DNA from: Kitasatospora phosalacinea
GTDB lineage: Bacteria > Actinomycetota > Actinomycetes > Streptomycetales > Streptomycetaceae
Length of the DNA: 64,000 nucleotides
Direction: 5' to 3'
NCBI RefSeq assembly: GCF_000716545.1
Contig: NZ_JNWZ01000038.1
Span: forward strand, 39,917-103,916
The stretch's first letter is position 1; every line of letters begins with the position of its first letter. Position numbers and translations under genes: made by a program. Positions 32,384-46,540 of the stretch are shown piece after piece. The notes beneath the pieces are model-generated. The model did not search any database and had not been told where the DNA came from. It was given only the letters and a program-made list of their open reading frames with translations.

Positions 32384-33745
32384 TCAGCTGTGGCGGCCCC
32401 GGGCGCGGCGGGCCAGCGCGATCACGCCGCCGCCCAGGCCCAGCAGCACCGCGGCGGCCCCCGCCGCCGGGGCGACCAGGTCACCGCCGCCGGTGTCCGG
32501 CAGCGGCGGTCCGGCCGGGGTCGAGGTGGAGCCGGTCGGCGGCGGGGTGCTCCGGCTCGGCGACGGCGCGGAGGTGCTCCCGCTCGGCGAGGGCGACGGG
32601 GACGGGGACGGGCTGGTGCTTCCACTCGGCGACGGGCTCGGCGAGGGCGACGGGCTGGGGCTGTCGCCGCACTCCGGCAGGTCGCCGTTGAACGGGTAGT
32701 TGTGGATCTCGGTGCCGGCGCTGCCCTGTTGGAGCAGGCTGCCCGCCAGGTAGACCCGGCCGTTGGTGCCCGGGTTGGAGAGCGTGGTGTTGCTCGCCGG
32801 GTTGCCCGTCATGATCGAGCCCTGCCACTGGGCGTCGCCCTCCACCACCACGTTGGTGGCGGTCGGGAAGTTCCACATCAGGTTCGGGCGCAGGATCGTC
32901 AGCGGGTCGTCGACCGCGCCGGTGCCGCTGCTGGTGTTGACCGTCACGTCGCTGCCGGTCATGTTGACGATCACCGTCGCGCCGGCCGGGATGCCCGCGA
33001 ACACGATGGCCCGGCGGCCGCCGTCGGTGCCGATGTTCTGGCCGTAGTCGAAGACCTGCCGGGCGCTGGTGCCGTCGCCGGTGAAGGTGACGGTGGTGCC
33101 GTCGTCCACCACGGTGCCGGTGGCGGTCTGCCGGGCCATGCAGGCGGAGTGGTTCTCGATGACCGGCCGCAGCGGCTTGAACTTGTCGATCGCGGCCGGG
33201 TCCTGGACGGCCTGGCCGTCGGGGGTGATGTCGTAGGCGCCGGTCAGCGTGGTGCCGTAGACCAGGTTGCCCCACAGGGCCTTCGGCGGCTGGACGAAGA
33301 AGTCGGTGCCGCCGATGAACAGTCTGCTGGGGTTGGCCTGCGAGGCGTCCATGGTGACCGAGCCGCCCACCGTGACGTGGTCCGAGCCGTTCGGCGGGGT
33401 GACCATCGAACCGACGCCCACCACGCCCATGTTGAACGCGCCGCCCATCGCCTTGTCGATGTCGAGGCTGCCGAGGACCGCGATCTCGCCCTCCGCCTCG
33501 GCGGCGTTCTGCCGCACCAGGTAGTCGCCGCCCACGTACACGTTGAGCGAGGCGTCCGCACCGTTGAACGGCCCGGTGTGCGGCGGGTCCCACTGGCTCG
33601 GGCAGTCCGGACCGGAGCACGGACCCAGCGGCGGGAGCATCTGGGCGGCCTCGCCGGACGCGGCCAGGGTGATCAGCGGGGCGGCGAGTGCCGCCACAGC
33701 AGCGAGGCGGAGCAGCGGGTTCTTGCCACGGATGCCGTGTCGCAC
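32384..33745 (-). CDS. Choice-of-anchor-A surface protein with LPXTG sorting signal
   Basis: A 453-residue exported protein. Signal peptide (about 1-35, AAVAALAAPLITLAASGEAA); a choice-of-anchor-A beta-helical domain (about 50-350) rich in short repeats (NVYVGGDYLVRQNAAEAEGE, GAFNMGVVGVGSMV, ITILRPN-like strands, NFPTATNVVVEGDAQWQGSI); a Pro/Ser repeat linker (PSPSPSPSPSGS units); then LPDTGGGDLVAPAAG, a hydrophobic helix and a basic tail. The LPDTG motif with helix and RRARGR tail is a sortase substrate, so the protein is probably linked to peptidoglycan. GTG at 33745. Probably an adhesin or ice-binding-like surface protein; ligand unknown. Confidence 0.87.
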   Translation of the reverse strand: MRHGIRGKNPLLRLAAVAALAAPLITLAASGEAAQMLPPLGPCSGPDCPSQWDPPHTGPFNGADASLNVYVGGDYLVRQNAAEAEGEIAVLGSLDIDKAMGGAFNMGVVGVGSMVTPPNGSDHVTVGGSVTMDASQANPSRLFIGGTDFFVQPPKALWGNLVYGTTLTGAYDITPDGQAVQDPAAIDKFKPLRPVIENHSACMARQTATGTVVDDGTTVTFTGDGTSARQVFDYGQNIGTDGGRRAIVFAGIPAGATVIVNMTGSDVTVNTSSGTGAVDDPLTILRPNLMWNFPTATNVVVEGDAQWQGSIMTGNPASNTTLSNPGTNGRVYLAGSLLQQGSAGTEIHNYPFNGDLPECGDSPSPSPSPSPSPSGSTSPSPSPSPSPSGSTSAPSPSRSTPPPTGSTSTPAGPPLPDTGGGDLVAPAAGAAAVLLGLGGGVIALARRARGRHS

Positions 33746-33926
33746 GGACACCCCTCTCGTTGACGGTGGGTCAGCAGGCAGCAGACCCGGCCAGCGAAGA
33801 GGAGGCCGGCACGGCGTCTCGAACAGCGGGACACCGACTCGCCGGAGAACCATTCGAACGGACTATTTTGATGTCACGTCACTGAATCTCGTCAGCGACC
33901 CCGCCAGTACCCGGAAAGGGAGAACC

Positions 33927-34595
33927 GTGCCGAACCCGCCGTTCGCCATGCTCGCCACCACCGCCGAGGTGCTCGCCCGGCCGGACGCCGACGAGCGGTT
34001 GCTCACCGGGTTCGAACGCGAGCGCCTGCAGCGCTTCCGGCGGCCCGCCGACCGCGACGACTACCTCGCCGCCCACCTCCTGGTCCGCCACTGCGCCGCC
34101 GCGCACCTCGGCACCGACCCGGCCGACATCGCCTTCGGCCAGCACTGCCCCGGCTGCGGCAGCACCGCCCACGGCCGCCCCCACCTCACCGACCGCCCCG
34201 GCACGCACCTGAGCCTCTCCCACACCAGCGGCATCATCGCCGCCGCGGCCGCCCCCGTCCCGGTCGGCGTCGACGTCGAGCACCTCGGCCTGCGCACCAA
34301 CGACCCGGCCACCCTGCAGCACGTCCTCACCCCCGCCGAGGCCGCGCTGGTCCAAGGCCACCCCGACCCCACCGCCGCCTTCCTCCGGCTGTGGGTGCGC
34401 AAGGAGGCGCTGATCAAGCTCGGCCGCACCACCCTCGACGCCCTCACCGGGCTCGACCTCTCGCACCTCCCGCTCGACCCGCCCACCGCCCACCGGGACG
34501 GCGACCTCCACTACCTCGAACTCGCCACCCCCACCGCCGTCTTCACCGCCGCCGCGACGCTCCCCGTCGAACTCGTCCCGCTCGCCGGGTTCTAG
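33927..34595 (+). CDS. 4'-phosphopantetheinyl transferase (Sfp type)
   Basis: A 222-residue PPTase that transfers phosphopantetheine from CoA to carrier-protein serines of polyketide, peptide or fatty-acid synthases. Core motifs: LSLSHTSG (95-102), VGVDVEHL (113-120, Mg ligands Asp116 and Glu118) and FLRLWVRKEALIKLGR (152-167). GTG at 33927 follows AAAGGGAG. Its TAG stop (34593-34595) lies exactly in the CTAG sequence where the mobile island begins; rejoining the flanks restores the same TTC-TAG ending. The gene is therefore intact and abuts an insertion. Confidence 0.92.
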   Translation: MPNPPFAMLATTAEVLARPDADERLLTGFERERLQRFRRPADRDDYLAAHLLVRHCAAAHLGTDPADIAFGQHCPGCGSTAHGRPHLTDRPGTHLSLSHTSGIIAAAAAPVPVGVDVEHLGLRTNDPATLQHVLTPAEAALVQGHPDPTAAFLRLWVRKEALIKLGRTTLDALTGLDLSHLPLDPPTAHRDGDLHYLELATPTAVFTAAATLPVELVPLAGF

Positions 34596-34619
34596 TACTC
34601 CAGTGCGGTTTCGCGATCT
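34592..34619. repeat. Left IS701-type terminal inverted repeat and target CTAG
   Basis: CTAG followed by TACTCCAGTGCGGTTTCGCG and ATCT. It pairs perfectly over 24 nt with the island's right end and with two mismatches in 24 nt to the repeat at 36332-36355. Confidence 0.8.
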
Positions 34620-35934
34620 ACGTGGATGAGGGTGCGGAGAGTCGTCGTCGGTAGTGGCTGCGGCGGGCTGAAGCTTGGTGGCTTCTGCGCCAGTGCGACC
34701 ACTCCAGGAGTCTCCTGAGAGAGCTGGTGGGTGGGGTTCAGCAGAGCGTCGACCAGGCGGCGGATCTCCGGGACGGTCAGGTCGACCGGGTCCTCGCTGC
34801 GGGCGGCGCGATTCGGGTCCGCTGGTCTGCTCGGCCTGGCGTCGTCCACGGCGACGGCGAGGAACGCGAGGGCGAGCATGGCCAAGGTGATGTGCCGGTG
34901 CCAGGCGGTCCAGTTGCGGACCTGATAGTGGTCCAGGCCGACCTGGCCCTTGGCCGCCTGGAAGCACTCCTCGATGCTCCAGCGAGACCCGGCGACCCGC
35001 ACCACCTCCGGAAGGGGCACGTTCCTCGGTGACCAGCAGACGTAGAAGGCGAGCACGCCTGTTGCAGGGTTGCGCCGGATGAGCAGGTGGCGATGTTCCT
35101 CGGTTCCGGTGTGCACCCAGGCCCAGTCGTAGTAGCGCGGGCCCTGGCACCGGTCCCGGCACTGTGCCGATGCCAGGCAGCGACGGGCAGCCGACGGGCG
35201 GCTTCGTCCGCGCGGATCGCGGTGCGGCCTGAGTTGATCCAAACCCTGGTCGCGCAGGAGACCGCCAGCACGTAGCCGACTCCGCGAGCCTCCAGGCCAG
35301 CTCGCAGGCTGGGGTCCTGCCCGTAAGCCTCGTCACCGGTCACCCACGATGCGCCCACTCCCGCGTCCAGGGCCGCCGCGATCATCTGCAGAGCCAGGCG
35401 GGGCTTGGTCGCGAACACGACCTCTGCCGGAACACCAGCCAGGCGGCGCCGCTCAGGATCCTGGCACCAGGTCTGCTCGGGAAGGTAGAGCCGACGGTCG
35501 ATCAATGCCCGGCCCCTGCTGGAGGCGTAGGCGAGGAAGACTCCGACCTGGCTGTTCTCGATCCGCCCGGCGGTGCCGGTGTACTGCCGTTGGACGCCTG
35601 CGGAGGCGCGGCCCTTCTTCAAGAAGCCCGTCTCGTCCACGACCAGGATGCCGTCGTCGGCGCCGAGGTGGTCGACGACGTAGCGGCGGACCTGGTCGCG
35701 CAGCGCGTCCGCGTCCCAGCGAGCGGTGCGAAGCAGTCGCTGCATCGGTCCGGGCCGGGCGTGCCCGGCCAGCCGCCAGCAGTTCTTCCGCTCGGCGCCG
35801 GACAGCAGTCCAAGCAGGTAGGCGCGGGCAGTCGCACGCGGTTCCACCCGCCCGAACAGGCCGGCGATCCGGGCCATGGCCTGGTCGAACAACTCCCGCC
35901 AGCGGACAGGGTCTACGCTATGGCCCACGGCCAC
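34592..35934 (-). pseudogene. IS701-family transposase, frameshifted
   Basis: A DDE transposase of the IS701 family split between two frames. From a GTG at 35934 the first frame gives the N-terminal part with DDGILVVDETGFLKKG and ASWVTGDEAYGQDP (catalytic Asp residues) up to about 35145. The C-terminal part (GPRYYDWAWVHTGTEEHRHL, SRWSIEECFQAAKGQVGLDH with the catalytic Glu region) continues in the frame that ends at 34592. A single-base deletion near 35144 (AGG where AAGG is expected) explains the shift, so this copy is probably inactive. The stop codon TAG is supplied by the CTAG at the insertion junction, not by the element itself. Confidence 0.85.
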
Positions 35935-35972
35935 CGCACGATCTTCAAGAGTCCATACAACCCTTGATCATC

Positions 35973-36326
35973 TCACGGTGGCCGCATCCGTCTGGCGTCG
36001 TAGCACTCGCCGTCGTCGCCTTGGACCCACGCGTCCAGCACTCTCGCCACCTGACACATCTTGGCGAGCAACACGTCGCTCGGATGCTTGGTCGTGATCC
36101 GCCCATCCCACCGGTACAGAGCCCCTCCGGACTCACCACCAACTCGGCGATCCATCGCCCCCCTCCGGGCCAGCCACCGCCAGGAATAACCATCACCAGG
36201 TCGGGATGCAGCGACCGCTGCCTACCACTCGTGCGTGCTGATGTCCCGCCCCTGCTCGTCCCACCAGTTCTCGCGGCACGTGATGTGCACGTCGTACCTA
36301 TGGGCAGGCACGGTAGGCCATGGAAC
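35973..36326 (-). pseudogene. Decayed small passenger gene inside the IS701-type element
   Basis: One reading frame encodes RYDVHITCRENWWDEQGRD followed by ISTHEW, an in-frame TAG at 36222-36224, then a readable continuation ending ITTKHPSDVLLAKMCQVARV and LDAWVQGDDGECYDARRM. The two halves resemble, from memory, a single 115-125-residue hypothetical family (YDVHITR-x-ENW-D at the start, V-VKNPD-x-x-x-x-KM-x-x-IA in the middle, VQGDDGE-Y at the end). The middle is better conserved in a second frame (MVIPGGGWPGGGRWIAEL), so frameshifts as well as a nonsense mutation are present. It lies between the transposase start and the right terminal repeat. Confidence 0.5.
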
Positions 36327-36331
36327 CGACA

Positions 36332-36355
36332 AGATCGCGAAACGGCAGTGGAGTA
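36332..36355. repeat. Internal (right) IS701-type terminal repeat
   Basis: Reverse complement of the left end with two mismatches in 24 nt, followed by CTAA. With 34596 it delimits a 1,760-bp IS whose flanks (CTAG and CTAA) do not match. Confidence 0.75.
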
Positions 36356-36456
36356 CTAAGCGTTTGCCGTGGCTTGTACGGTGGCGATCCGGGTCGGTGC
36401 GTGGTTCGTCTCCACCGAGATGGTTCCATGAGCGCCCACCGCTGTATCTGATCGTT

Positions 36457-37265
36457 TCAGAATGATCGCGAGAGCCGCCGCAGGCAGATGATCGAGCACG
36501 CAAGTTCGAGCAGTCCCTGGTGAAGGTCCGCCCGGCGCTCGTAGCGGATGCGCAGGCGCTTGAACTGATGCAGCCAGGCAAACGCACGCTCCACGACCCA
36601 GCGAACTTTGCCAAGGCCGGAGCCGTGAGCGACTCCGCGTCGGGCGATCATGGGCTTGATGCCAAGCTTCCACAGCTGACGCCGGTACTTGTCGAAGTCG
36701 TAGCCCCGGTCGGCATACAGGCGTCGGGGTTTGCGGCGGGGGCGCCCTCGCAAGCCTCGGATCGGCGGGACTGCGTCCAGCAGCGGTAGAAGCTGGGTGA
36801 CGTCGTGTCGGTTACCGCCGGTGAGCTTGACGGCCAGCGGGGTGCCGTGGCGGTCGACAATCAGGTGGTGCTTGGAGCCAGGCCTGGCGCGGTCGACTGG
36901 CGAGGGGCCGACGTGATCCCCCCTTTGAGGGCCCGGATGTGCGAGCCGTCCACGGCGCAGTCGTCCAGGTCCAGCAGGTCGGCTCGGCGCAGTTCGGTCA
37001 GCAGTGCGGCATGCAGGCGGGGCCAGACGCCCGCCTCGGTCCAGTTCCGCAGCCTGCGCCAGGCCGTCACCCCGGAGCAACCGACGACCTGACTTGGTAC
37101 GTCGCGCCAGGCGACGCCCTTGCGTAGGACGTAGACGATGCCGGCCAGCGCGACCCGGTCGGGCACTGGGAGCCGCCCGGGATGGCGGTGCCGTCGCGCG
37201 GGCTGTGCCGGCAGCAGTGGGGCTATCCGATCCCACAGCTCGTTGGGGACAAGGTTCGCGGTCAC
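36457..37265 (-). CDS. IS5-family transposase, two frames joined by -1 frameshifting
   Basis: The first frame starts at a GTG (37265): VTANLVPNELWDRIAPLLPA, VLRKGVAWRDVPSQVVGCSG and LDLDDCAVDGSHIRALKGG (first Asp of DDE), ending at 36861. The second frame carries RPGSKHHLIVDRHGTPLAVK, RRLYADRGYDFDKYRRQL and VRWVVERAFAWLHQFKRLRI (second Asp and Glu), ending at 36457. The overlap contains AAAGGGGGG (minus strand, 36926-36918), a classic -1 slippage heptamer, at exactly the point where the frames must join (LKGG to GDHVGPSPVDRARPGSKHH). This matches the programmed frameshift seen in many IS5/IS427-group elements, so the enzyme may be functional. Confidence 0.82.
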
Positions 37266-37327
37266 GATGCGGAAGCATGCCAGAGAACCCGGTTGAGCCC
37301 TTCGAGTCCGCTCGACATACTCCCCGA

Positions 37328-37723
37328 ATGACCAACACTGGGACCGAAGACGCAGAGCAGGGATGGGACGGACCCTGGTACCGCGTCCGAACGGATCAGT
37401 TCGAGGCGTCGTTCCTACCCAACGCGGGCGAAGCTCTGGACAGCGTCTGCAACGTCGATGTCGAGGTCCGGCTCACAGCGGACGGCTCACGCTGGAGCGC
37501 GACCGTATTCACGCTTGCCGAGGTAGAACGCATCATGGAGCGGTGGTCCCGCACCGGCGAGGCACTGGGCGGCCGCTACTTCTGGTGCTCCGATGGCCTC
37601 ATCGTCCGAGATCCCGGAATCGACAGTATCACCCAGGTGCTGGCCGGCCTCCTCGACGACGGCGACTTCGCGCAGGTTCTCCAGCAGCTCGACGGCGAAG
37701 GACCGTCCGACGCCTCATTCTGA
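37328..37723 (+). CDS. Passenger protein of unknown function within the IS5-type element
   Basis: A 131-residue soluble protein (MTNTGTEDAEQGWDGPWYRV at the N-terminus, then CNVDVEVRLTADGSRWSATV, GRYFWCSDGLIVRDPGI and an acidic C-terminus). I know similar hypothetical proteins in streptomycetes but no function. No RBS is evident; it is divergent from the transposase and its TGA stop falls inside the IS terminal repeat. Base composition resembles host genes more than the transposase. It may have been captured between an IS end and the transposase. Confidence 0.6.
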   Translation: MTNTGTEDAEQGWDGPWYRVRTDQFEASFLPNAGEALDSVCNVDVEVRLTADGSRWSATVFTLAEVERIMERWSRTGEALGGRYFWCSDGLIVRDPGIDSITQVLAGLLDDGDFAQVLQQLDGEGPSDASF

Positions 37724-37853
37724 AATGATCAGTATGTCATGGTCGCCATAGTCGCGGGGGATAATTTGCTCTCTGGCCTGCGGCGATGATGTGGCGGGCG
37801 GTTACTGACGTCAGTGGGTCCGTCGCGGATTCTTCGAGGACAGGGGAGGCCGG

Positions 37854-39854
37854 ATGCACTCGCTGGGTGCCAGGCTCAGCACTGCCCGGGCACGTGCTTT
37901 CGTGGGTCGTGAGATCGAGCTGGACTGCTTCGGCAAAGCCCTGCGCGGGGACGTCGACGCCCCGTTCGTGTTCTGGCTGGTCGGGCCGGGCGGGATCGGG
38001 AAGTCGGCTTTGCTGCGGCGTCTTGGGGATCGGGCGCGGGCCGAGGGACGGGTTCTGGTCGAGTTGGACGGCCGGTTCCTGGGACGCGACCCGGCGGACT
38101 TCGAGGATGCGGCGGACGCGTTCGTGAGCGTCCCCGGAACAGTGCTGTTCATCGACTCGTTCGAGCACTGTCAGTGGCTGGAGAGCCGTCTGTGGCAGCG
38201 GTTCCTGCCGCGGGCCGCTCCAGGGGCACTGGTGGTGTTGGCCGGGCGGCTCGCTCCGCTGCCGCAGTGGACCGCCGATCCGGCGTGGGCAGGTCTGCTG
38301 CAGGTCCGGGAGCTGCGGCCGCTCAGCGGTGGCGAGGCCGAGGCGTTGCTGGAGGCGGCATCGGTGCGGCCGGAGCGGCGGGACGCGGTGCTGCGTTTTG
38401 CCGGGGGCAATCCCTTGGCGTTGACCCTGGCGGCCGCAGCCGACTCCGCCGGGCGGGTGGGCAGTGAGTGGTCCCCGTCTGCCGAAGTGCTACGCACGTT
38501 GGTGGCCGGACTGGTCGGGGAGGTCCCCTCGGCGGCACATCGTCGAGCACTTGAGGTGGCAGCGCAGGCTCACGCGACGACCGAGGAGTTGCTCACGGCG
38601 GTACTCGCCGAGCAGGACGCGTCGGGGTTGTTCCAGTGGTTGCGTGAGCTGCCGTTCGTCGAATCGACGCCCTTGGGGCTGTATCCGCACGACGCTGCGC
38701 GGGAGACGTTGATGGCCGACCTGCGATGGCGGGCGCCCACTGCGTTCCAGGCGATGCGGCAGCGTCTGGCGGAGGAGTACTTGCGTTTGCTGCGCGAGGC
38801 ACGGCCGGAGCGGGTGCGGGCGGTCACCGACGATCTGTTCTACCTGTTCCGGGACGTCCAGAAGTTGCAGCGGACGAGGGTGTGGGTCAGCACCGAGGAA
38901 GACCTGTACGAGGATGTGCTCGAAATCGAGGACCACGACCTGGTGCTGTCCATGGCCGAGCAGGCTGAGGGGCCGGAATCGGCCGAGTTGGTGCGTTACT
39001 GGCTGACGCGGCAACCGCAGGGCTTCAGCGTCTTCCGGCTGATCTCCAGCGGGCGCATCGTCGCGTTCACCACGCGCCTGGTTCTGCCGGCCCCGCCGGA
39101 CATCACCGACACCGACACCGATCCGGTCGTGGCGGCGGCGTGGCGGTACAGCCAGGAGACCGCGCCGGTGAGGCCGGGCGAGCACATCGCCATGACCCGG
39201 TTCTCGATATATCCCGGGCGCTATCAAGTACCTTCCCGCGTCATCGACTTGAGCAACTCCAGGGTCCAGGCGGAAGCCATGCGGGCGCGCGGACGCGCGC
39301 ACGGGTTCCTCGTCTACCGCGACCACCCGGCGTGGGCGGAGCGGCTGCAGGGAGTCCTGGCCGACTCCGGGGTCCGCTGCGACGTCGGCGGCCGTGAGTA
39401 CGGGCTGTTCACGATCGACTGGCGCAAGGTCCCGGTGGAGCGGTGGCTCCGGCACCTGATCGACGCCACCGAGATGCCGGCTCTGTCCGGGCCGTCGGGT
39501 ACGCCGCGCCCGGCTTTCGACCAGGCCGTCCGCGAGGCGCTGCAGCTGTGGCGCGACCCCGGCGCGTTCGCCGCCTGCGCCCTGCTGCGCACCCGCCTGG
39601 TGGCCGACTGCGACGACCCGGTGCAGGACCTGAAAGACCTGCTGCGACAGGCAGTTGAGGCGCTCGCCGCCGACCCGCGCGGTGTGCGGGCCAAGGAGGC
39701 CCTGGCGACCGCGTTCTTCTCGGGCGCGCCGACGCAGGAGGCTGCGGCGAGGCGCTTGGGCCTTCCCTACGGGACGTTCCGGCGCCACCTGCGGCAAGGT
39801 CTCGACCTGCTGTGCGCGTCCCTGTGGGAGAAGGAGCTGTACGGCACGGACTGA
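37854..39854 (+). CDS. STAND-type ATPase with C-terminal helix-turn-helix
   Basis: A 666-residue protein. Residues 15-260 are an AAA_16/NACHT-like ATPase: FVGREIELD, Walker A VGPGGIGKSALLRR (43-56), Walker B TVLFIDSFEHC (96-106), and GGNPLALTLAAA (sensor/GxP-like). Residues about 260-390 are helical. Residues about 390-540 are a mixed alpha/beta region (SSGRIVAFTTRLVLPAPPDI, MRARGRAHGFLVYRDHPAWA) that could be GNAT-like. The last 50 residues form a sigma-70 region-4-like helix-turn-helix (TQEAAARRLGLPYGTFRRHL, RQGLDLLCASL). This is the architecture of large ATP-dependent regulators. It is the first non-IS gene of the island; target unknown, possibly the downstream cassette. Confidence 0.8.
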   Translation: MHSLGARLSTARARAFVGREIELDCFGKALRGDVDAPFVFWLVGPGGIGKSALLRRLGDRARAEGRVLVELDGRFLGRDPADFEDAADAFVSVPGTVLFIDSFEHCQWLESRLWQRFLPRAAPGALVVLAGRLAPLPQWTADPAWAGLLQVRELRPLSGGEAEALLEAASVRPERRDAVLRFAGGNPLALTLAAAADSAGRVGSEWSPSAEVLRTLVAGLVGEVPSAAHRRALEVAAQAHATTEELLTAVLAEQDASGLFQWLRELPFVESTPLGLYPHDAARETLMADLRWRAPTAFQAMRQRLAEEYLRLLREARPERVRAVTDDLFYLFRDVQKLQRTRVWVSTEEDLYEDVLEIEDHDLVLSMAEQAEGPESAELVRYWLTRQPQGFSVFRLISSGRIVAFTTRLVLPAPPDITDTDTDPVVAAAWRYSQETAPVRPGEHIAMTRFSIYPGRYQVPSRVIDLSNSRVQAEAMRARGRAHGFLVYRDHPAWAERLQGVLADSGVRCDVGGREYGLFTIDWRKVPVERWLRHLIDATEMPALSGPSGTPRPAFDQAVREALQLWRDPGAFAACALLRTRLVADCDDPVQDLKDLLRQAVEALAADPRGVRAKEALATAFFSGAPTQEAAARRLGLPYGTFRRHLRQGLDLLCASLWEKELYGTD

Positions 39855-40063
39855 GCCTCCGGCGTCGGCCGAGTGGACAGGCGTGGACAGCAACGGACAG
39901 CGCCGGGGCTGGGAAGTGGACAGCCGATGGGGCCAGGCTATGAGCCATGAACCCCACCGGCTGCAAGCCACGACGATCCCGCCCCGGCGACCCAGGGCGG
40001 GCACCGCCCGACCGTGAGCCTCACCGGCCGCGGACCCTACAGGTCCGGGTTGACTCCCCAAAG

Positions 40064-40085
40064 TGTGAGTGGTTGAGTACTCACA
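40064..40085. promoter_or_regulatory. TetR operator overlapping the tetR start codon
   Basis: TGTGAGT (40064-40070), 8 nt, ACTCACA (40079-40085) is a perfect inverted repeat whose last base is the A of the tetR ATG. TTGACT (40050-40055) is a plausible -35, which with a 17-18-nt spacer would start transcription at the ATG: a leaderless, self-repressed gene. Its left part, TGTGAGTGGTT, recurs at 40718 before the MFS gene. Confidence 0.65.
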
Positions 40086-40651
40086 TGAAGAGCGAACGAT
40101 CCCGCCAGCTGTCCACCGCCGAGGAGCGCCGCGAGACGGTGCTGCGCACCGCCATCGGGGCCTTTGCCGCCCGCGGTTACTGGGGCACCACCACGACCGA
40201 GGTGGCCAAGGCGGCGGGTATCTCGCAGGCCTATGTGTACCGCCTGTTCCCGAGTAAGGAACTGCTCTTCACCGCGGTGGTCGAGCACTGCTTCGTGCAG
40301 GTGCGGGCCGCCCTGGAGCGGGCGGCCGCCGACGCCAAGGGCAGCTCCTCGGAGGTGGTCCTCGGGGCCATGGGAGAGGCGTACGCCCGCCTGATCAGCG
40401 ACAACGACCTGATGCTGATCCAGCTCCACGCCCAGGCGGCGGCGGTGTCCGAGCCGGCTGTGCGCGAGGCCGTGCGGCAGGGCTACGCCCGGCTGGTGGA
40501 GTACGTGCGCGGCGCCTCCGGCGGCACCGAGCAGCAGATCCAGGAGTTCTTCGCCCTGGGCATGCTGTGCCATCTCATCGTCTCCATGGGGGCCGAAGAG
40601 GTGGACGCCCCCTGGACCAGGACGCTTTCGGCCGGCATCAGGCACTACTGA
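40085..40651 (+). CDS. TetR-family regulator of the MFS/carotenoid-oxygenase cassette
   Basis: A 188-residue TetR regulator. The helix-turn-helix covers about residues 12-58 (ERRETVLRTAIGAFAARGYW, GTTTTEVAKAAGISQAYVYR, LFPSKELLFTAVVEHCF). The C-terminal ligand domain is AcrR-like (FFALGMLCHLIVSMGAEEV). ATG at 40085 inside its own operator; no RBS is visible, suggesting leaderless translation. A hairpin at 40681-40701 follows. The motif shared with the promoter of the MFS gene indicates that it represses itself and the downstream cassette. Confidence 0.88.
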   Translation: MKSERSRQLSTAEERRETVLRTAIGAFAARGYWGTTTTEVAKAAGISQAYVYRLFPSKELLFTAVVEHCFVQVRAALERAAADAKGSSSEVVLGAMGEAYARLISDNDLMLIQLHAQAAAVSEPAVREAVRQGYARLVEYVRGASGGTEQQIQEFFALGMLCHLIVSMGAEEVDAPWTRTLSAGIRHY

Positions 40652-40680
40652 GCCGAGCGCGACGGCGCGACCAGGTCATC

Positions 40681-40701
40681 GGCGGGGCCCGCGGCCCCGC
40701 C
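40681..40701 (+). terminator. Hairpin after tetR
   Basis: GGCGGGGCC (40681-40689), CGC, GGCCCCGCC (40693-40701): a perfect 9-bp stem between tetR and the next promoter. Confidence 0.6.
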
Positions 40702-40717
40702 TTCCTTGGCCAACAAA

Positions 40718-40737
40718 TGTGAGTGGTTAACCACACA
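40718..40737. promoter_or_regulatory. Second TetR-type operator, before the MFS gene
   Basis: TGTGAGTGGTTAACCACACA. The 12-bp core GTGGTTAACCAC is a perfect palindrome and the first 11 bases are identical to the operator at 40064. It ends 12 nt before the MFS start. Confidence 0.65.
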
Positions 40738-40749
40738 GGGAGTGTTCTC

Positions 40750-42198
40750 GTGAAGTCCACCGGCACCACCCGCAGCCCTGGAGCCGCTCTCGCGGCGCTG
40801 GCCGGGGCGCAGTTCACCGTCATGCTGGCCACCTCGATCGTGAACGTGGCGCTGCCGCAGATCCGGTCGGGCGTGGGCCTGTCGGACAGCGCCACCACCT
40901 GGGTGGTCAACGCCTACGGCCTGGCTTTCGGAGCCCTGCTGCTGGCCGGCGGCCGGGCGGCGGACCTGCTGGGCCGACGGCGGCTCCTGCTGGCGGGCCT
41001 GGGGATCTTCGCCGCCTCGTCGCTGGCTGCGGGGCTCGTCTCCTCGTCCGCAGCGCTGATCGCAGCGCGGGCGGCGCAGGGCCTGGGAGCGGCGGCGATC
41101 GCCCCCGCGGCACTGGCCCTGGTGATGGACGTGTTCCCTCCGGGCCCCGGTCGCGGGAAGGCGCTCGGCGTGTGGGGTGCGGTGTCCGGTGCGGGAGGTG
41201 CGGCCGGGGTCCTCCTCGGCGGCGTGCTCACCCAGGCATGGGGCTGGCCGTGGATCTTCTACACGGTCGCGATCGGCGCCGCCCTCGTCCTGGCCGCCAC
41301 GGTCGCCAGCGTGCCACGGGCGCCCGCCCAGGTGAGCGGACGCTTCGACGTCCTCGGTACCGCCACCGTGACCCTCGCCCTCACCGCGCTGGTGTGGGGT
41401 CTGACGACCGCGCGCCGCACCGGGTGGAGTGATCCGTCCGTCCTGGGGAGCTTCGCCATCGCCGCCGCACTGCTGACCGCGTTCGTCCTGGTCGAACGCC
41501 GCCACCCGCACCCGCTGCTGCCGCCCCGCCTGTTGCAAACAGGTCGGGTCGCCACCGGCAACGCGCTGATGGCGCTGCTGGGATCGGTGTGGATCGCCCT
41601 GTTCTTCTTCCTGCCGCTCTACCAGCAACAGGTCCTCGGCGACAGCCCGCTGACCACAGGGCTCGGCCAACTCCCCCTCGCCTTCGCCAACATGCTCGGC
41701 TCCACCCTCGCACCACGGATCTCCCGCCGCATCGGCGCCACCGCCACGATCACCGGCGCGCTGCTGACCGAGGCAGCCGGACTGCTGTGGCTATCCCGGC
41801 TCAGCGCAGACGGCAGCTACGCCGTCGACGTCCTAGGCCCCAGCCTGCTGATCGGCCTCGGCCTGAGCATCGCCTTCGTCCAGCTGACCGCCCTGTCCGT
41901 CGAGGGCGTCCCCGCCCAAGACGCAGGTCTGGCCGGCGGCCTGGTCAACACCACCCGCCAGGTCGGCGGCGCCATCGGTCTGGCCGTCCTGGCCACTCTC
42001 GCCGGCACCGTCACCACCCACGCGGCCACCCACCAACCGCACCTGGAAGCACTGACCGCCGGCTACCGCACCGCCTTCGCCATCAGCTCCGCGGTCCTGG
42101 CCGCCACCGCCGTGCTCGCACTCCTGCTCTCCTGCCGGCACACCACGACCCCGGCGACCGGCCGACGCCTCCCGCAGCCCGCAACCAACCGCCACTGA
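40750..42198 (+). CDS. MFS drug exporter, DHA2 (14-TM) family
   Basis: A 482-residue major facilitator. N-terminal helix AALAGAQFTVMLATSIVNVA with the DHA2 segment NVALPQI and TTWVVNAYGLAFGALLLAGG; motif A GRAADLLGRRRLLLAGLGI; motif C-like GAVSGAGGAAGVLLGGVLTQ. About 14 helices. GTG at 40750 with GGGAG 7 nt upstream. First gene of the cassette, directly behind a TetR-type operator. Probably exports a hydrophobic product or toxicant linked with the following SRPBCC/carotenoid-oxygenase genes. Confidence 0.88.
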   Translation: MKSTGTTRSPGAALAALAGAQFTVMLATSIVNVALPQIRSGVGLSDSATTWVVNAYGLAFGALLLAGGRAADLLGRRRLLLAGLGIFAASSLAAGLVSSSAALIAARAAQGLGAAAIAPAALALVMDVFPPGPGRGKALGVWGAVSGAGGAAGVLLGGVLTQAWGWPWIFYTVAIGAALVLAATVASVPRAPAQVSGRFDVLGTATVTLALTALVWGLTTARRTGWSDPSVLGSFAIAAALLTAFVLVERRHPHPLLPPRLLQTGRVATGNALMALLGSVWIALFFFLPLYQQQVLGDSPLTTGLGQLPLAFANMLGSTLAPRISRRIGATATITGALLTEAAGLLWLSRLSADGSYAVDVLGPSLLIGLGLSIAFVQLTALSVEGVPAQDAGLAGGLVNTTRQVGGAIGLAVLATLAGTVTTHAATHQPHLEALTAGYRTAFAISSAVLAATAVLALLLSCRHTTTPATGRRLPQPATNRH

Positions 42199-42261
42199 CC
42201 AGCCGAACCCCTTCAACTCACCGAACCTGACACCCCGTCAATCGAAAGAGGAACCACCGCC

Positions 42262-42702
42262 ATGTTCACCATCGACGAGACCGCCCCCGTCATCGTCCGC
42301 CTGTCCACCGTCATCGACGCCCCCCTGGAACGCATCTGGGCCCTGCACACCGACATCGACACCTGGGCCGAATGGAACGCCGACGTCGACCAGGCCAAGC
42401 TCGACGGCCCGCTGCTGCCTGGCAACTCCTTCCACTGGAAGACCCACGGACTGGACATCACCTCCACCATCCGCGAGATCGTCCCCGGCGAGCGCCTGGT
42501 GTGGGGCGGCCCCGCCAACGGCATCGACGGCATCCACGTGTGGACCTTCGAGCAGACCGGCAGCCACGTCACCGTCCACACCGAGGAGTCCTGGGCCGGG
42601 GCCCCTGTCGAGGCCGCCGCCGACCAGCTCGGCCAGGCCCTCAAGGAGTCCCTGACCACCTGGCTCGCCAGCCTCAAGACCCGCGCCGAACAGCACGCCT
42701 GA
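42262..42702 (+). CDS. SRPBCC (START-like) ligand-binding protein, cytoplasmic
   Basis: A 146-residue polyketide-cyclase/SRPBCC-fold protein: VIVRLSTVIDAPLERIWALH, WAEWNADVDQAKLDGPLLPG, FHWKTHGLDITSTI, RLVWGGPANGIDGIHVWTF and HTEESWAGAP with a C-terminal amphipathic helix. The fold has a deep hydrophobic pocket; members bind lipids or polyketides or cyclise them. It has no signal peptide, unlike its paralogue at 44178, with which it shares GLDITST, WGGPA-x-GID-x-IHVWTF and TEESW-GAPV. It is 41 bp upstream of the carotenoid oxygenase. Confidence 0.85.
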   Translation: MFTIDETAPVIVRLSTVIDAPLERIWALHTDIDTWAEWNADVDQAKLDGPLLPGNSFHWKTHGLDITSTIREIVPGERLVWGGPANGIDGIHVWTFEQTGSHVTVHTEESWAGAPVEAAADQLGQALKESLTTWLASLKTRAEQHA

Positions 42703-42743
42703 ATCCCCCTCCCATCCCGCCCCATCGAATCGAGGTTCCTGCC

Positions 42744-44099
42744 ATGACCACCGCCAAGCCGTACCTGACCGGCCACTACACGCCCGCCGTCGACGAACTG
42801 ACCGCCACCGAGCTGACCGTCGAGGGCACCCTGCCGCCGGAGCTGACCGGCCGACTGATCCGCAACAGCCACAACCCGAAGGCCGGCGTCACCCCCACCC
42901 ACTGGTTCAAGGGCTCCGGCATGGTCCACGGCGTCCGCCTGCGCGAGGGCCGCGCCGAGTGGTACCGCAACCGCTGGGTCCACACCCCCGCCCTCGACGG
43001 CGCCCCCTACATGACCGAGCGCGGCCCCGACCTGACCGCCAGCACCGCCGGCACCCACGTCATCGAGCACGCCGGCCGCCTGCTGGCCCTGTGCGAGGCC
43101 AACTTCCCCTTCGAGCTCACCCCCGAACTGGAGACCGTCGGCCCCTACGACTTCGACGGCAAGCTGCGCAGCGCGATGACCGCGCACCCGAAGACCGACC
43201 CGGTCACCGGCGAGCTGCACTTCTTCGGCTCCTCCCCGTTCCCGCCCTATCTGATCTACTACGTCGCCGACGCCAAGGGGCAGATCACCCACAGCGCCGA
43301 AATCCCCGGAGCGACCGCTTCCCTCAAGCACGACTTCGCCATCACCCGCCACCACGTGATCTTCGTCGAGGGCACCGTCACCTTCGACCCCACCGAGCAC
43401 TCCGGCATCCCCTACTCCTGGCAGGACGCCCAGCCTGCCCGGATCGGCGTCATGCCGCGCGGAGCGCAGGGCGCCGGGAAGATCCGCTGGTTCTCCATCG
43501 AGCCGGGCAACATGCTGCACGCCGCCAACGCCTACGAGGACGGCCAGGGCCGGATCGTCCTGGAGGGCCCCACCGTCGACCGGGAAGGCTTCCAGCTCTC
43601 CTGGAACTGGTGGGTCGGCGCCCCCGGCCGCGGAACCGAACCCAACACCCGCTCCTACACCCGCCGCTGGATCATCGACCTCAACACCGGCAGCGTCGAC
43701 GAGCAGATCATCGACGACCTCGCCGTCGAATTCCCGACCCTCAACGACGACTTCCTCGGAGCCGAGCACCGCTACCAGTACGCCATCTCCTTCCCCGACC
43801 AGGAAGGCTTCGGCGGCTACGGCGTCGTCAAGTACGACCGCACCACCGGCGCCCGCCGCATCCACCAGGTCGGCGACGCCCGGCTGCCCAGCGAAGCCGT
43901 CTTCGTCCCCGCCACCGGAGCCACCCGCGAAGACGACGGCTACCTGCTCACCGTCGTCTCCGACCTCAAGCAGGACGCCTCCCAACTCCTGGTCCTGGAC
44001 GCCTCCGGCCTCGACACGATCGCCACCGTCCACCTCCCGCGCCGCGTCACCGGCGGCATCCACGGCTCCTGGATCCCCGACAGCGAGCCCAACAACTGA
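42744..44099 (+). CDS. Carotenoid cleavage oxygenase family protein
   Basis: A 451-residue seven-bladed beta-propeller dioxygenase. Conserved features: GRLIRNSHNPKAG at the N-terminus, HWFKGSGMVHGVRL, the iron-binding His segments ASLKHDFAITRHHVIF and GNMLHAANAYED, and the C-terminal GGIHGSWIP. Four His ligands to Fe(II) are expected, and candidates for all are present. The family cleaves C=C bonds in carotenoids, apocarotenoids or stilbenes. The flanking SRPBCC proteins and MFS exporter suggest that the hydrophobic product is bound and shuttled. No carotenoid synthesis genes are in the window, so the substrate may be exogenous. Exact subfamily uncertain. Confidence 0.88.
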   Translation: MTTAKPYLTGHYTPAVDELTATELTVEGTLPPELTGRLIRNSHNPKAGVTPTHWFKGSGMVHGVRLREGRAEWYRNRWVHTPALDGAPYMTERGPDLTASTAGTHVIEHAGRLLALCEANFPFELTPELETVGPYDFDGKLRSAMTAHPKTDPVTGELHFFGSSPFPPYLIYYVADAKGQITHSAEIPGATASLKHDFAITRHHVIFVEGTVTFDPTEHSGIPYSWQDAQPARIGVMPRGAQGAGKIRWFSIEPGNMLHAANAYEDGQGRIVLEGPTVDREGFQLSWNWWVGAPGRGTEPNTRSYTRRWIIDLNTGSVDEQIIDDLAVEFPTLNDDFLGAEHRYQYAISFPDQEGFGGYGVVKYDRTTGARRIHQVGDARLPSEAVFVPATGATREDDGYLLTVVSDLKQDASQLLVLDASGLDTIATVHLPRRVTGGIHGSWIPDSEPNN

Positions 44100-44105
44100 C
44101 CCACC

Positions 44106-44137
44106 CCTGCGGCGGGGCGGGCCCGCCCCGCCGCAGG
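44106..44137. terminator. 32-bp perfect palindrome after the carotenoid oxygenase
   Basis: The arms at 44106-44121 and 44122-44137 (CCTGCGGCGGGGCGGG and its complement) form an uninterrupted palindrome, able to make a very stable hairpin between the oxygenase and the secreted SRPBCC gene. It may terminate or attenuate transcription, or protect the upstream RNA. Confidence 0.7.
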
Positions 44138-44177
44138 CAAGCCCCCGACCAACCCGCCTCCACACAAGGACCTGACC

Positions 44178-44771
44178 ATGCGCATCCTCACCGCCACCAA
44201 GTTCTTCGCCGCCACCACCGGCGCCCTCCTCCTCGCCACCGGCACCGCCTACGCCCTCAGCGACGACCAGCTGGCCGTCTCCTCCAGCCAGTCGCTGACC
44301 TGCGGCGGCGTCCACCCCGACGAGTCCGCACCGGTGATCACCCGCAAGAGCACCGTGATCCACGCGCCGCTGAAGACCGTCTGGAAGGTGCAGACGGACG
44401 TCGAGAACTGGCCTGCCTGGCAGCCCAATGTCACGTCGCTGGTGAAGGACACCCCCGGCGCTCTGCGGTCCGGGTCGGTGTTCCGCTGGGCCACCGAGGG
44501 CCTGGACATCACCTCCACCGTCAAGAAGGTCGAACACGACAAGTGCCTGGCCTGGGGCGGCCCCGCCCAGGGCATCGACGCCATCCACGTGTGGACGTTC
44601 ACCCCGACCGCCGACGGCGTGCTCGTGCGCACCGAGGAGTCGTGGACCGGCGCCCCGGTCGTGGCGAACACCGCCTACCTGCAGGCAGCCCTGGACAACT
44701 CCCTCCAGAACTGGGTCAACAACCTCAAGCACGAGGCCGAGGCCCAGGCCCAGGCCCAGGCCACCAAGTAA
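44178..44771 (+). CDS. Secreted SRPBCC-fold protein
   Basis: A 197-residue protein with a signal peptide (about 1-27, FFAATTGALLLATGTAYAL) and a mature SRPBCC domain: VITRKSTVIHAPLKTVWKVQ, ENWPAWQPNV, EGLDITSTVKK, CLAWGGPAQGIDAIHVWTF, RTEESWTGAPVV, ending in an Ala/Gln-rich tail (EAEAQAQAQATK). Two Cys (TCGG and KCLAW) might pair outside the cell. It is clearly paralogous to the cytoplasmic protein at 42262. Secreted START-like proteins are uncommon, and having both compartments covered around an oxygenase and exporter suggests hand-over of a hydrophobic ligand. Inferred. Confidence 0.85.
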   Translation: MRILTATKFFAATTGALLLATGTAYALSDDQLAVSSSQSLTCGGVHPDESAPVITRKSTVIHAPLKTVWKVQTDVENWPAWQPNVTSLVKDTPGALRSGSVFRWATEGLDITSTVKKVEHDKCLAWGGPAQGIDAIHVWTFTPTADGVLVRTEESWTGAPVVANTAYLQAALDNSLQNWVNNLKHEAEAQAQAQATK

Positions 44772-44782
44772 CCCCCTATCCA

Positions 44783-44812
44783 GCCTCCGGAGCCCTCACC
44801 AGCTCCGGAGGC
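44783..44812 (+). terminator. Hairpin between cassette genes
   Basis: GCCTCCGGAGC (44783-44793) and GCTCCGGAGGC (44802-44812), perfect 11-bp stem with 8-nt loop. Confidence 0.6.
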
Positions 44813-44835
44813 GCCCATTGCCGGAGAGGTCCACC

Positions 44836-45384
44836 ATGCCGCTCGACAGCGCGCTGCTCACGATCCACGTCCTCGCCGCCCTCGTGATGCTCGCCAGCCT
44901 CTCCCTCGACTGGATCGGCGTCCTGCGGCTGCGACGCGCCAGCACGCTTCCCCACGCCCGTGAAGGCGTCACCGCCCTCGAACGGTCGGCCGCTTTCGGC
45001 GCCTGGGCCCGCCTGATCACCCTGGCCGCCGGACTCTGGCTCGCCATCGACACCGGCCACTGGCCCGGCTGGATCATCGCCGCACTCGCCGGATGGACCG
45101 CCCTCGTCCTCCTCGGCGAACCCCTAACCGGCAAAGACCTGCGCACCATGGCCAAAACCGGGCGCAAGAGCGACGGCCTGACCCCCACACTCGCGGCCGA
45201 GATCCACCACCCGCGCCTGTGGTCCTCCCTCCACACCTGCACCGCAGTGGTAGCCGCCGCCCTCACCGACATGCTCGCCAAGCCTGCCCTGGCCCTCGCC
45301 CTCACCCTTCTGGCCGCCGGATACCTCACCGGCACCCTCACCGCACGACTGACCCGCAACCGCCAACCCGAGCCAAGCCCGTGA
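44836..45384 (+). CDS. Four-helix membrane protein
   Basis: A 182-residue protein with four hydrophobic helices (LTIHVLAALVMLASLSLDWI, LITLAAGLWLAIDTGHW, WIIAALAGWTALVLLGEPLT, LALALTLLAAGYLTGTLTA) and conserved-looking His-Asp residues (SLDWIG; EIHHPRLWSSLHT). It resembles small DUF2269/CopD-like membrane proteins but I cannot name the family with certainty. ATG at 44836 following GGAGAGG. Last intact gene of the cassette; a strong hairpin lies downstream at 45461. Confidence 0.65.
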   Translation: MPLDSALLTIHVLAALVMLASLSLDWIGVLRLRRASTLPHAREGVTALERSAAFGAWARLITLAAGLWLAIDTGHWPGWIIAALAGWTALVLLGEPLTGKDLRTMAKTGRKSDGLTPTLAAEIHHPRLWSSLHTCTAVVAAALTDMLAKPALALALTLLAAGYLTGTLTARLTRNRQPEPSP

Positions 45385-45460
45385 GCCGGGCGTAACCGCC
45401 ACAGACTCCCCGCCCGGAGCCCCCGACCGAACGCGCGCCCCCCTACAAGCGACGCGCACC

Positions 45461-45489
45461 GAGCCCCGCCCGCCCTGCGGGCGGGGCTC
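45461..45489 (+). terminator. Terminator hairpin before the truncated tetR
   Basis: GAGCCCCGCCCGC (45461-45473), CCT, GCGGGCGGGGCTC (45477-45489): perfect 13-bp stem. Confidence 0.75.
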
Positions 45490-45509
45490 ACCGACTTGGA
45501 GGACCCGTC

Positions 45510-45698
45510 ATGACCAGCGCCCACAACATTCGCCAGCGCACCCGCGATGACTTCCTGAAAGAAGTCCGAACCGTCGCGCACCAGCACCTCGCGCAGCACG
45601 GCACCCCACGGGCTGGCCCTGCGCGCCGTCGCCCGAGACATAGGAATGGCCCCGTCCGCGCTCCACCGCTTCTTCACCAGTCGCGAGGCTCTCCTGAG
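45510..45698 (+). pseudogene. TetR-family regulator fragment, frameshifted and truncated by the island end
   Basis: Frame one gives MTSAHNIRQRTRDDFLKEVR followed by TVAHQHLAQHGT; frame two continues HGLALRAVARDIGMAPSALH and RFFTSREALLS. Together they make a TetR helix-turn-helix (about 60 residues) with one indel near 45600. Coding then runs straight into the terminal repeat at 45699 and the ligand domain is missing. The insertion or deletion that created the island's right boundary cut this gene. GGAGGA precedes the ATG. Confidence 0.75.
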
Positions 45699-45722
45699 CG
45701 CGAAACCGCACTGGAGTACTAG
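45699..45722. repeat. Right IS701-type terminal inverted repeat of the island
   Basis: Exact inverted copy (24 of 24) of 34592-34615, ending in CTAG. No further IS sequence lies inward; the adjoining DNA is the tetR fragment. Confidence 0.8.
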
Positions 45723-45754: not shown

Positions 45755-46540
45755 TCACACCTGCCGCAGCAGGGCGACGAGTTCGGCGTGCGCGCCGGGC
45801 GCGGCGGCGAGGAAGGACGGCGCGGCGGGCGTCCAGGGGGCGCCCTGCGCGTCGCTGACGACGGCCCCGGCCTCGGCGGCGAGCAGCGCGCCGGGCAGCA
45901 GGTTGGCGGGGTCGGCGCCGTACTGCCAGAACAGGGTGAGGTGGCCGGAGCCGACCTGGGCGGCCTGCAGGGCGGTGGGGCCGAGGTTGCGCACGGCGGG
46001 GACGTGCGGCAGGACGGCGGCCAGCGAGGCGCCGGCGGCGCGCAGCGCGTCCGGGTCGCGGGCGACGCCCGGCGGCTGGGAGGTGGCGGCGAGGGCGGTG
46101 GCCAGGGTGCGCGGGCGGGGCGCGCGGCGGCGGCCGTTCAGCCGGGCGCCGCCGCCGGCCGCCGCGGTGTAGGTGGCCCCGGCGAGCGGGGCGTGCACCA
46201 CCGCCAGGACGGGGGCGCCGTCGCGCAGCAGCGTCGCGGTGACGGCCCACTGCGGGAGGGCGCTCAGGTACTGGACGGCGCCGTCGGTGGCGTCGCACAG
46301 CCACCACTCGCCGTCCCCGGGCACCTCGCGCGCCCACTCGTCGTCCAGCCAGCCGGCCCGCGGGCGCAGCGCGGTGAGGCGTTCGCGCAGCAGCCCGGCG
46401 GCGGGCCGGTCGAGCGCGTCGAAGGCGGCGCGCGTCTCGGCGGGGGTGGCGGCGGCGAGCGGCTCGGCGCCCTGCCGCCCGGCCAGGTGGCGGCCGACTT
46501 CGCGCACGGCCCGTTCGACGGCGTCCAGCAGTTCCTGCAC
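45755..46540 (-). CDS. Inositol monophosphatase-family phosphatase
   Basis: A 261-residue protein with the IMPase/CysQ layout: a metal-site Asp/Glu pair in GWLDDEWAREV, the central WWLCDATDGAVQYLSALPQW (D-x-x-DG-x-x-x-x, metal- and phosphate-binding), PVLAVVHAPLAGATYTA, and a C-terminal WQYGADPANLLPGALLAAEA in place of the usual W-D-x-A-A. The last Asp is replaced in part (ADPAN), so activity may be altered. It is convergent with the island's right end and divergent from the double-Lrp gene. Confidence 0.82.
   Translation of the reverse strand: MQELLDAVERAVREVGRHLAGRQGAEPLAAATPAETRAAFDALDRPAAGLLRERLTALRPRAGWLDDEWAREVPGDGEWWLCDATDGAVQYLSALPQWAVTATLLRDGAPVLAVVHAPLAGATYTAAAGGGARLNGRRRAPRPRTLATALAATSQPPGVARDPDALRAAGASLAAVLPHVPAVRNLGPTALQAAQVGSGHLTLFWQYGADPANLLPGALLAAEAGAVVSDAQGAPWTPAAPSFLAAAPGAHAELVALLRQV

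Follow-up and report, generated by a model that had tools for sequence, protein, structure and literature searches.

Composite transposons are organized in the manner of Tn5 and Tn10, and an insertion sequence (IS) that bears passenger genes is termed a transporter IS (tIS). We describe here an 11.1-kb island bounded by IS701-type ends within 64,000 nucleotides of the Kitasatospora phosalacinea genome (NCBI RefSeq assembly GCF_000716545.1, contig NZ_JNWZ01000038.1, positions 39,917 to 103,916 of the forward strand). This whole stretch is referred to as the window, and positions are counted within it. The IS701 family was established in PMC2266710, which counts the lack of a YREK motif among the family's traits and in Table 1 lists a typical size of 1400 to 1550 bp, and, to the extent that the available part of that 2008 family review covers them, modular elements with extra DNA were then known only from IS231.

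The island is, in our judgment, probably a decayed IS701 cargo transposon, and most likely one derived from a composite. The flanks of its ends are central to this reading. A composite that moved from a CTAA site to a CTAG site is expected to show CTAG outside and CTAA inside, which is the pattern observed, while a lone IS inserted at CTAG would show CTAG on both sides and would leave the tip at the far end of the island unexplained. We found a single IS701 transposase, an outer pair of ends, cargo, and a duplication, all as in a cargo unit with one transposase. Two IS copies do not surround the cargo, the left copy being complete and the right one reduced to 20 bp, and we therefore call the island composite derived rather than class it as a composite.

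Results

The outermost segments, 34592 to 34615 and 45699 to 45722, are exact reverse complements of each other, as an earlier reading of this DNA from its letters alone (the sequence-only reading) had claimed when it described perfect 24-bp repeats flanked by CTAG. That description can be refined. Judged from the sequences compared, the true repeat is a 20-bp inverted repeat and CTAG is a 4-bp target duplication, not part of the repeat, because relatives at the nonpalindromic site CTAA show CTAA directly oriented on both sides (3 of the 25 other units that we tabulated, L139, L108, and L180). CTAG is palindromic and therefore merely resembles part of an inverted repeat. The identity of the outer pair ends at exactly 20 bp, and the ATCT found in most native ends is retained by the inside end. 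With up to 3 mismatches allowed, the 20-bp core matched 3 sites in the window and none in 100 shuffles; the perfect core occurs at two sites in the assembled genome (7.6 Mb, 98.7% complete, 226 contigs), and both are the island ends.

Matching 4-mers are found at the outer ends only, with CTAG/CTAG outside and CTAG/CTAA around the single IS; the inside CTAA differs from CTAG by one base. The sequence-only reading had also placed a repeat at 36332 to 36355, with two mismatches and a CTAA flank. The inside repeat does differ from the outer pair at 2 positions of the 20-bp core, and CTAA does follow it, but the registers compared were unequal: the outer 24-mers contain CTAG, whereas 36332 to 36355 omits CTAA and includes GATC. 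In the matching register, the inside end is 36336 to 36359, with 3 differences. A further IS701-type end with a CTAA flank lies at 4886 to 4905 of L136, on the short contig C123 of the window's own genome; no transposase similarity was detected on that contig.

The left IS701 copy aligns from end to end with L116, a 1706-bp element of genome G009 flanked by CTAG/CTAG (82.7% over 1702 positions, small upstream open reading frame [ORF] included), and 36336 to 36355 is therefore the left copy's own inside (5') end. At 1760 bp, the copy is longer than a typical IS701 element (1400 to 1550 bp) and than five plain relatives of 1446 to 1458 bp, because of the extra small ORF. Its transposase is of the IS701 DDE type: against NF033540, the N-terminal part scores 301.4 bits (cutoff, 150), and the C-terminal part alone scores 124.7 bits, under the cutoff because the gene is broken. 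Compared with L116, the gene has several length differences that change the frame; the transposase is therefore not expected to work, nor the island to be autonomous at present. At 34592 to 34654, the broken frame runs to the extreme tip, with its stop codon supplied by the CTAG target.

The right end, read from the tip inward, is identical to the 3' end of the left copy over exactly 20 bp, after which TetR-like sequence begins. This TetR fragment has a plausible start, one frame shift, and an end at the repeat. Its in-frame piece at 45607 to 45699 matches TetR_N (9.7e-06, 25.7 bits; Pfam cutoff, 24), and the ORF taken in the first frame only is without a Pfam match. Where the joint falls, CGC is present in the related TetR gene at 9 of 10 compared loci, 6 of which have CGCG, so that the first bases of the repeat may be common to the TetR gene. 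These sequences make a deletion joint at short microhomology a likely cause of the bare right end. A TetR gene downstream of the related cluster in G340 (Pfam TetR_N and TetR_C_33) was considered as the donor gene; it is 75% identical to the fragment over 92 bp, and we treat it as a paralogue.

The CTAG target includes the TAG stop codon of the 4'-phosphopantetheinyl transferase (PPTase) gene on the left, and the insertion leaves that stop intact. We sought the phosphatase gene of the right flank in 69 other genomes of the genus and compared the best 29 loci, with about 1.5 kb of flank each. In the six most similar loci, PPTase adjoins the phosphatase (64 to 1047 bp between aligned C-terminal ends) without the island, so that the cargo lies between genes that are adjacent in these 6 of the 29; no sequence resembling the inverted repeat is present at any of the 29. 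The claim of an insertion at CTAG between these neighbors thus holds for the adjacency of the flanking genes in the six closest relatives and for the matching outer 4-mers. It does not extend to the junction itself, since the exact predicted empty junction was found in none of 200 loci, no same-species genome being among them. The nearest sites differ from the predicted junction, and L015 has CTAG near the junction in the alignment.

IS701 ends bound other segments as well, as the sequence-only reading had proposed to check. A degenerate pattern of the ends gave 71 matches in 49 of 394 genomes of the family, and the reversed control gave 0. Among the 25 other tabulated units bounded by such ends, the flanking 4-mers match in 19 (16 CTAG, 3 CTAA) and differ by one base in 6, a match rate biased upward in that imperfect second ends were partly accepted only beside CTAG, CTAA, TTAG, or TTAA. 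Eleven of the 25 (nine types, 2.1 to 6.5 kb) consist of a single IS701 transposase body with cargo and, at the distal end, a short stub or tip. In five of them (L106, L129, L130, L140, and L186), the stub measures 72 to 271 bp; in the other six (L105, L197, L107, L108, L109, and L135), only a 5' tip of ~23 to 37 bp lies beyond the cargo. The inside-end match stops short of the tip by 102 bp in L106, 9 in L129, 16 in L130, and 5 in L140, and in L186, where the tip has diverged, it begins at reference position 6; these damaged inside ends are read from BLAST match stops in units found through strict outer repeats, which may have biased their ascertainment. Plain copies have no extra distal stub listed alongside, within compared flanks of mostly a few kb.

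Three of these types recur at unrelated sites. L105 and L197 are 98.1% identical over 6487 bp, with flanks TCAG/TTAG and CTAG/CTAG; L107 and L108 are 90.2% identical, with flanks CTAG/CTAA and CTAA/CTAA; and L106, L165, and L169 are ~96% identical, L165 and L169 lacking an intact right end and L106 having an additional 72-bp IS fragment directly outside its right end. In all three types, similarity ends within ~16 bp of the tips. Recurrence at unrelated sites therefore points to outer ends, one of them only a short stub or tip, as the carriers of cargo in this clade.

The 6.5-kb unit of L105 (2876 to 9350) and L197 (1031 to 7511) carries, near the 5' tip of its IS, an inserted gene for a peptidase M9 (collagenase family). 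Passenger genes lie between a 23- to 29-bp 5' tip and the IS701 transposase in L109 (61 to 2533), L107 (2561 to 5660), L108 (2221 to 5310), and L135 (9316 to 11715), and this group encodes a Beta-lactamase2-family protein, an ankyrin/HEAT-repeat protein (two genomes), and a SAM methyltransferase. In L186 (4137 to 7054), flanked by CCAG/CTAG, a 109-bp 3' stub and a single IS body whose inside end has diverged accompany the gene of an FAD-binding oxidoreductase (FAD_binding_3). Four further units are internal-deletion derivatives of 766 to 1225 bp with matching CTAG duplications (L131, 2001 to 2778; L170, 1039 to 1810; L173, 1061 to 1826; L193, 1034 to 2258), possibly mobilized in trans. The island itself, at 11.1 kb and with seven cargo genes besides transposases, falls outside the class of miniature inverted-repeat transposable elements and short internal-deletion derivatives. 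CCAG stands in place of the expected CTAG outside an end of L166, L169, L187, L192, L199, L106, and L186. The left flank of L107 and the right flank of L197 place different units beside a near-identical outside sequence of ~36 bp, oppositely oriented, which may be the terminus of another repeat that served as a target.

The cargo, seven genes from the ATPase to the protein without a Pfam match, follows an IS5-family element (Table 1), and related cassettes occur elsewhere. Positions 37741 to 44883 are 89.5% identical to a locus in G340, a member of another genus of the same family, and 38472 to 45475 matches Streptomyces cavernae in three pieces covering ~5.1 of 7.0 kb at 88 to 91% DNA identity. 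Long matches to the cassette within the genus reach 78 to 81%. GC content is 66.4 to 70.7% in the island and 73.7 and 74.6% outside it. A donor search with the 44818 to 45384 protein gave one named locus, in S. cavernae, and 393 other genomes of the family yielded one distant relative (51%); genome G120 was compared with the island proteins for similarity only. No plasmid record reaches 80% coverage, either of the IS or of the remainder. Long IS matches reach at most 79.4% among the plasmid matches listed, besides which two records have IS matches of 80 to 90%, and the cluster reaches 81.8% over 34%. To judge from the protein families, the cargo may serve in the turnover and export, under regulatory control, of an apocarotenoid-like or stilbene-like compound.

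Table 1. Features of the island and its immediate flanks (window positions)
Feature	Positions	Strand	Basis
4'-Phosphopantetheinyl transferase (PPTase) ORF, left flank; true start further in	33543..34595	+	Pfam ACPS 1.2e-11
Target duplication, left copy CTAG	34592..34595	.	
IS701 transposase, frame-broken	34592..35934	-	NF033540 and L116 alignment
Terminal 20-bp inverted repeat, 3' end of left IS701 copy	34596..34615	+	
Complete IS701-family element, 1760 bp	34596..36355	-	End-to-end alignment with 1706-bp relative
Degenerate copy of small ORF (~85 aa; upstream of transposase in 1.7-kb relative)	35990..36312 (approximate limits)	-	
Inside end, native 5' inverted repeat, 2 substitutions	36336..36355	-	
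Inside flank CTAA, interpreted as donor-site target	36356..36359	.	
IS5-family transposase element, two frames	36441..37253	-	Pfam DUF4096 and DDE_Tnp_1; plasmid IS5 matches
ATPase, 666 aa, probable regulator	37854..39854	+	AAA_16 0.00018, under Pfam cutoff; 93% aa match in G340
TetR regulator, true start probably near 40040	39947..40651	+	TetR_N 9.7e-12
DHA2-like MFS exporter	40723..42198	+	MFS_1 3.5e-51; EmrB-type model 225.1 bits, slightly under 230.2 cutoff
SRPBCC protein	42262..42702	+	Polyketide_cyc2 2.3e-13
Carotenoid-oxygenase (RPE65 family) enzyme	42747..44099	+	RPE65 1.7e-110 (longer ORF); solved carotenoid dioxygenases 4.8e-59
Second SRPBCC protein	44178..44771	+	Polyketide_cyc2 1.6e-13
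Protein without Pfam match	44818..45384	+	80-85% aa relative, same cluster, Streptomyces cavernae
Start of second TetR gene, frame-shifted, truncated at terminal repeat	45510..45702	+	TetR_N on in-frame piece
Distal 20-bp IS701 stub, bare right end	45699..45718	-	
Target duplication, right copy CTAG	45719..45722	.	
Inositol-monophosphatase-family gene, right flank	45755..46540	-	PF00459 3.4e-25

Discussion

The donor, the two-copy stage, the order of events, and the deletion mechanism that we infer for the island can be laid out as follows. In a donor actinomycete, one IS701 copy would have occupied a CTAA site upstream of the cluster of regulator, MFS, SRPBCC, and carotenoid-oxygenase genes, and on the downstream side of the cluster another copy would have lain within, or past, a second TetR gene. 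Both outer ends would then have been excised together and inserted in CTAG at the PPTase stop codon, duplicating CTAG. Before or after this jump, a deletion would have cut the right copy to its last 20 bp and taken the greater part of the TetR gene with it, the joint perhaps lying at the common CGC or CGCG. Afterward, the left transposase would have broken and the inside end gained two substitutions. The sequence-only reading had offered a decayed composite as the simpler alternative, and with CTAG outside and CTAA inside it is now the reading that we favor. The sequence-only reading had also judged the outer pair likely to be the functional unit, a view made plausible by the comparison with relatives: three unit types with a stub or tip, though not the island, give indications of movement from the outer ends, and the island's own transposase is broken.

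A number of observations weigh against a composite origin. The proposed microhomology spans just 3 to 4 bp in GC-rich DNA and could be due to chance, and the TetR loci compared were G340 and the nine best hits of a search whose query included the repeat's first 4 bases, so that the result at the joint was favored by selection. A full donor TetR gene beside the cluster was not seen: S. cavernae diverges from the island at 45475, and no intact second TetR gene was recognized there beside the relative of the 44818 to 45384 protein. Shorter pieces of the cassette reach 84 to 91% within the genus, and a donor within the genus is possible. At the insertion site, PPTase was not found within the ~1.5-kb flank in 23 of the 29 relatives, and the 200 loci without the exact predicted junction count here as well. 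We found no genome with an intact right IS copy, nor the same composite elsewhere. Lastly, the assembly is a draft in 226 contigs.

The strongest competitor is a variant of the favored reading in which the donor already had the 20-bp stub and all 11.1 kb moved by the two outer ends as a unit with a single IS, whose inside end was weak. We give this sequence of events a substantial chance, somewhat under even, and since it differs from the favored reading in the order of events only, that chance is not additional to the latter's. One-body units with a distal stub or tip of ~24 to 271 bp do recur at unrelated sites (the L105, L107, and L106 types described above), the inside-end match falls short of the tip in L106, L129, L130, and L140, and there are CTAG/CTAG copies whose 5' end lacks the extra ATC, for example, L134 and L151. 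Against it, 20 bp is less than every other stub or tip observed (the smallest is ~23 bp), the island's inside end is altered at just 2 of 20 positions, and no second copy of the island appeared in the genomes and plasmids searched.

It is improbable that a lone IS inserted at CTAG and that the cassette arrived later, by recombination or another insertion alongside. The left element is complete and its inside CTAA is one base off CTAG, as this account would have it, but it does not account for the distal tip, a perfect IS end that has a CTAG of its own, and past the right end comes the neighbor gene that adjoins the left flank in the closest relatives. We hold one-ended transposition, or the use of a surrogate end by which adjacent DNA moved with a single true end, to be less probable still. 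The sequence-only reading had raised one-ended or repeat-only mobilization as an origin, and the right end does lack IS sequence past 20 bp; it is, however, a perfect 20/20 IS tip against a matching CTAG, which is not expected from one-ended events, and a decayed composite accounts for the difference between the flanks, so we set that proposal aside. An assembly artifact or chance repeats, to which a draft in 226 contigs might lend some color, we regard as the least credible account of all, given the absence of matches in 100 shuffles, the two perfect copies in the whole assembled genome, the location of the island within one 104-kb contig, and the fact that a simple misjoin at an intact right IS would not set an outward-facing tip directly against TetR.

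The favored reading of the island suggests a broader pattern, which we advance tentatively and at slightly less than an even chance. IS701 in this family of bacteria (probably the Streptomycetaceae) may repeatedly turn composites into single-transposase cargo transposons, in which one copy shrinks to a stub of 20 to ~270 bp, the other is left without an inside end, and the outer pair then moves a module of regulators and enzymes as one unit into CTAG or CTAA. The island would then be the largest example here, with an inside end only starting to decay and a stub cut to the bare repeat. Such a pattern suggests a route by which an ordinary IS family could take sets of metabolic and regulatory genes from one actinomycete genus to another. 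The graded series of plain IS, stub units, separated-tip units, and the island makes the step from composite to unit transposon testable, and it carries a caution: a seemingly bare repeat can be the sole trace of a mobile unit's second end.

In the open-access PMC literature, as represented by the available portions of its texts (including PMC2266710, PMC8024623, PMC7371123, PMC10322971, and PMC11092175), we found no description of IS701 cargo units in this recurrent stub-and-cargo form. The likeness to the IS701 family (NF033540) lies in the transposase family, the 4-bp target duplication, and the size of the smallest relatives (1446 to 1458 bp); the larger units described here differ in having genes between one end and the transposase. 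With composite transposons, the island shares cargo bounded by the outer ends of IS, a matching outer duplication, and a different inside flank, but it retains one IS body, the other copy being a 20-bp stub. It resembles the IS231-type modular elements, or transporter IS, in having only one transposase, with additional genes lying between its body and a terminal repeat. IS231, however, belongs to the IS4 family and makes duplications of 10 to 12 bp, whereas the island belongs to IS701, makes one of 4 bp, and has an inside end that is still recognizable. Set beside these systems, the island is ordinary in kind, and the stub-and-cargo pattern within IS701 is a modest novelty.

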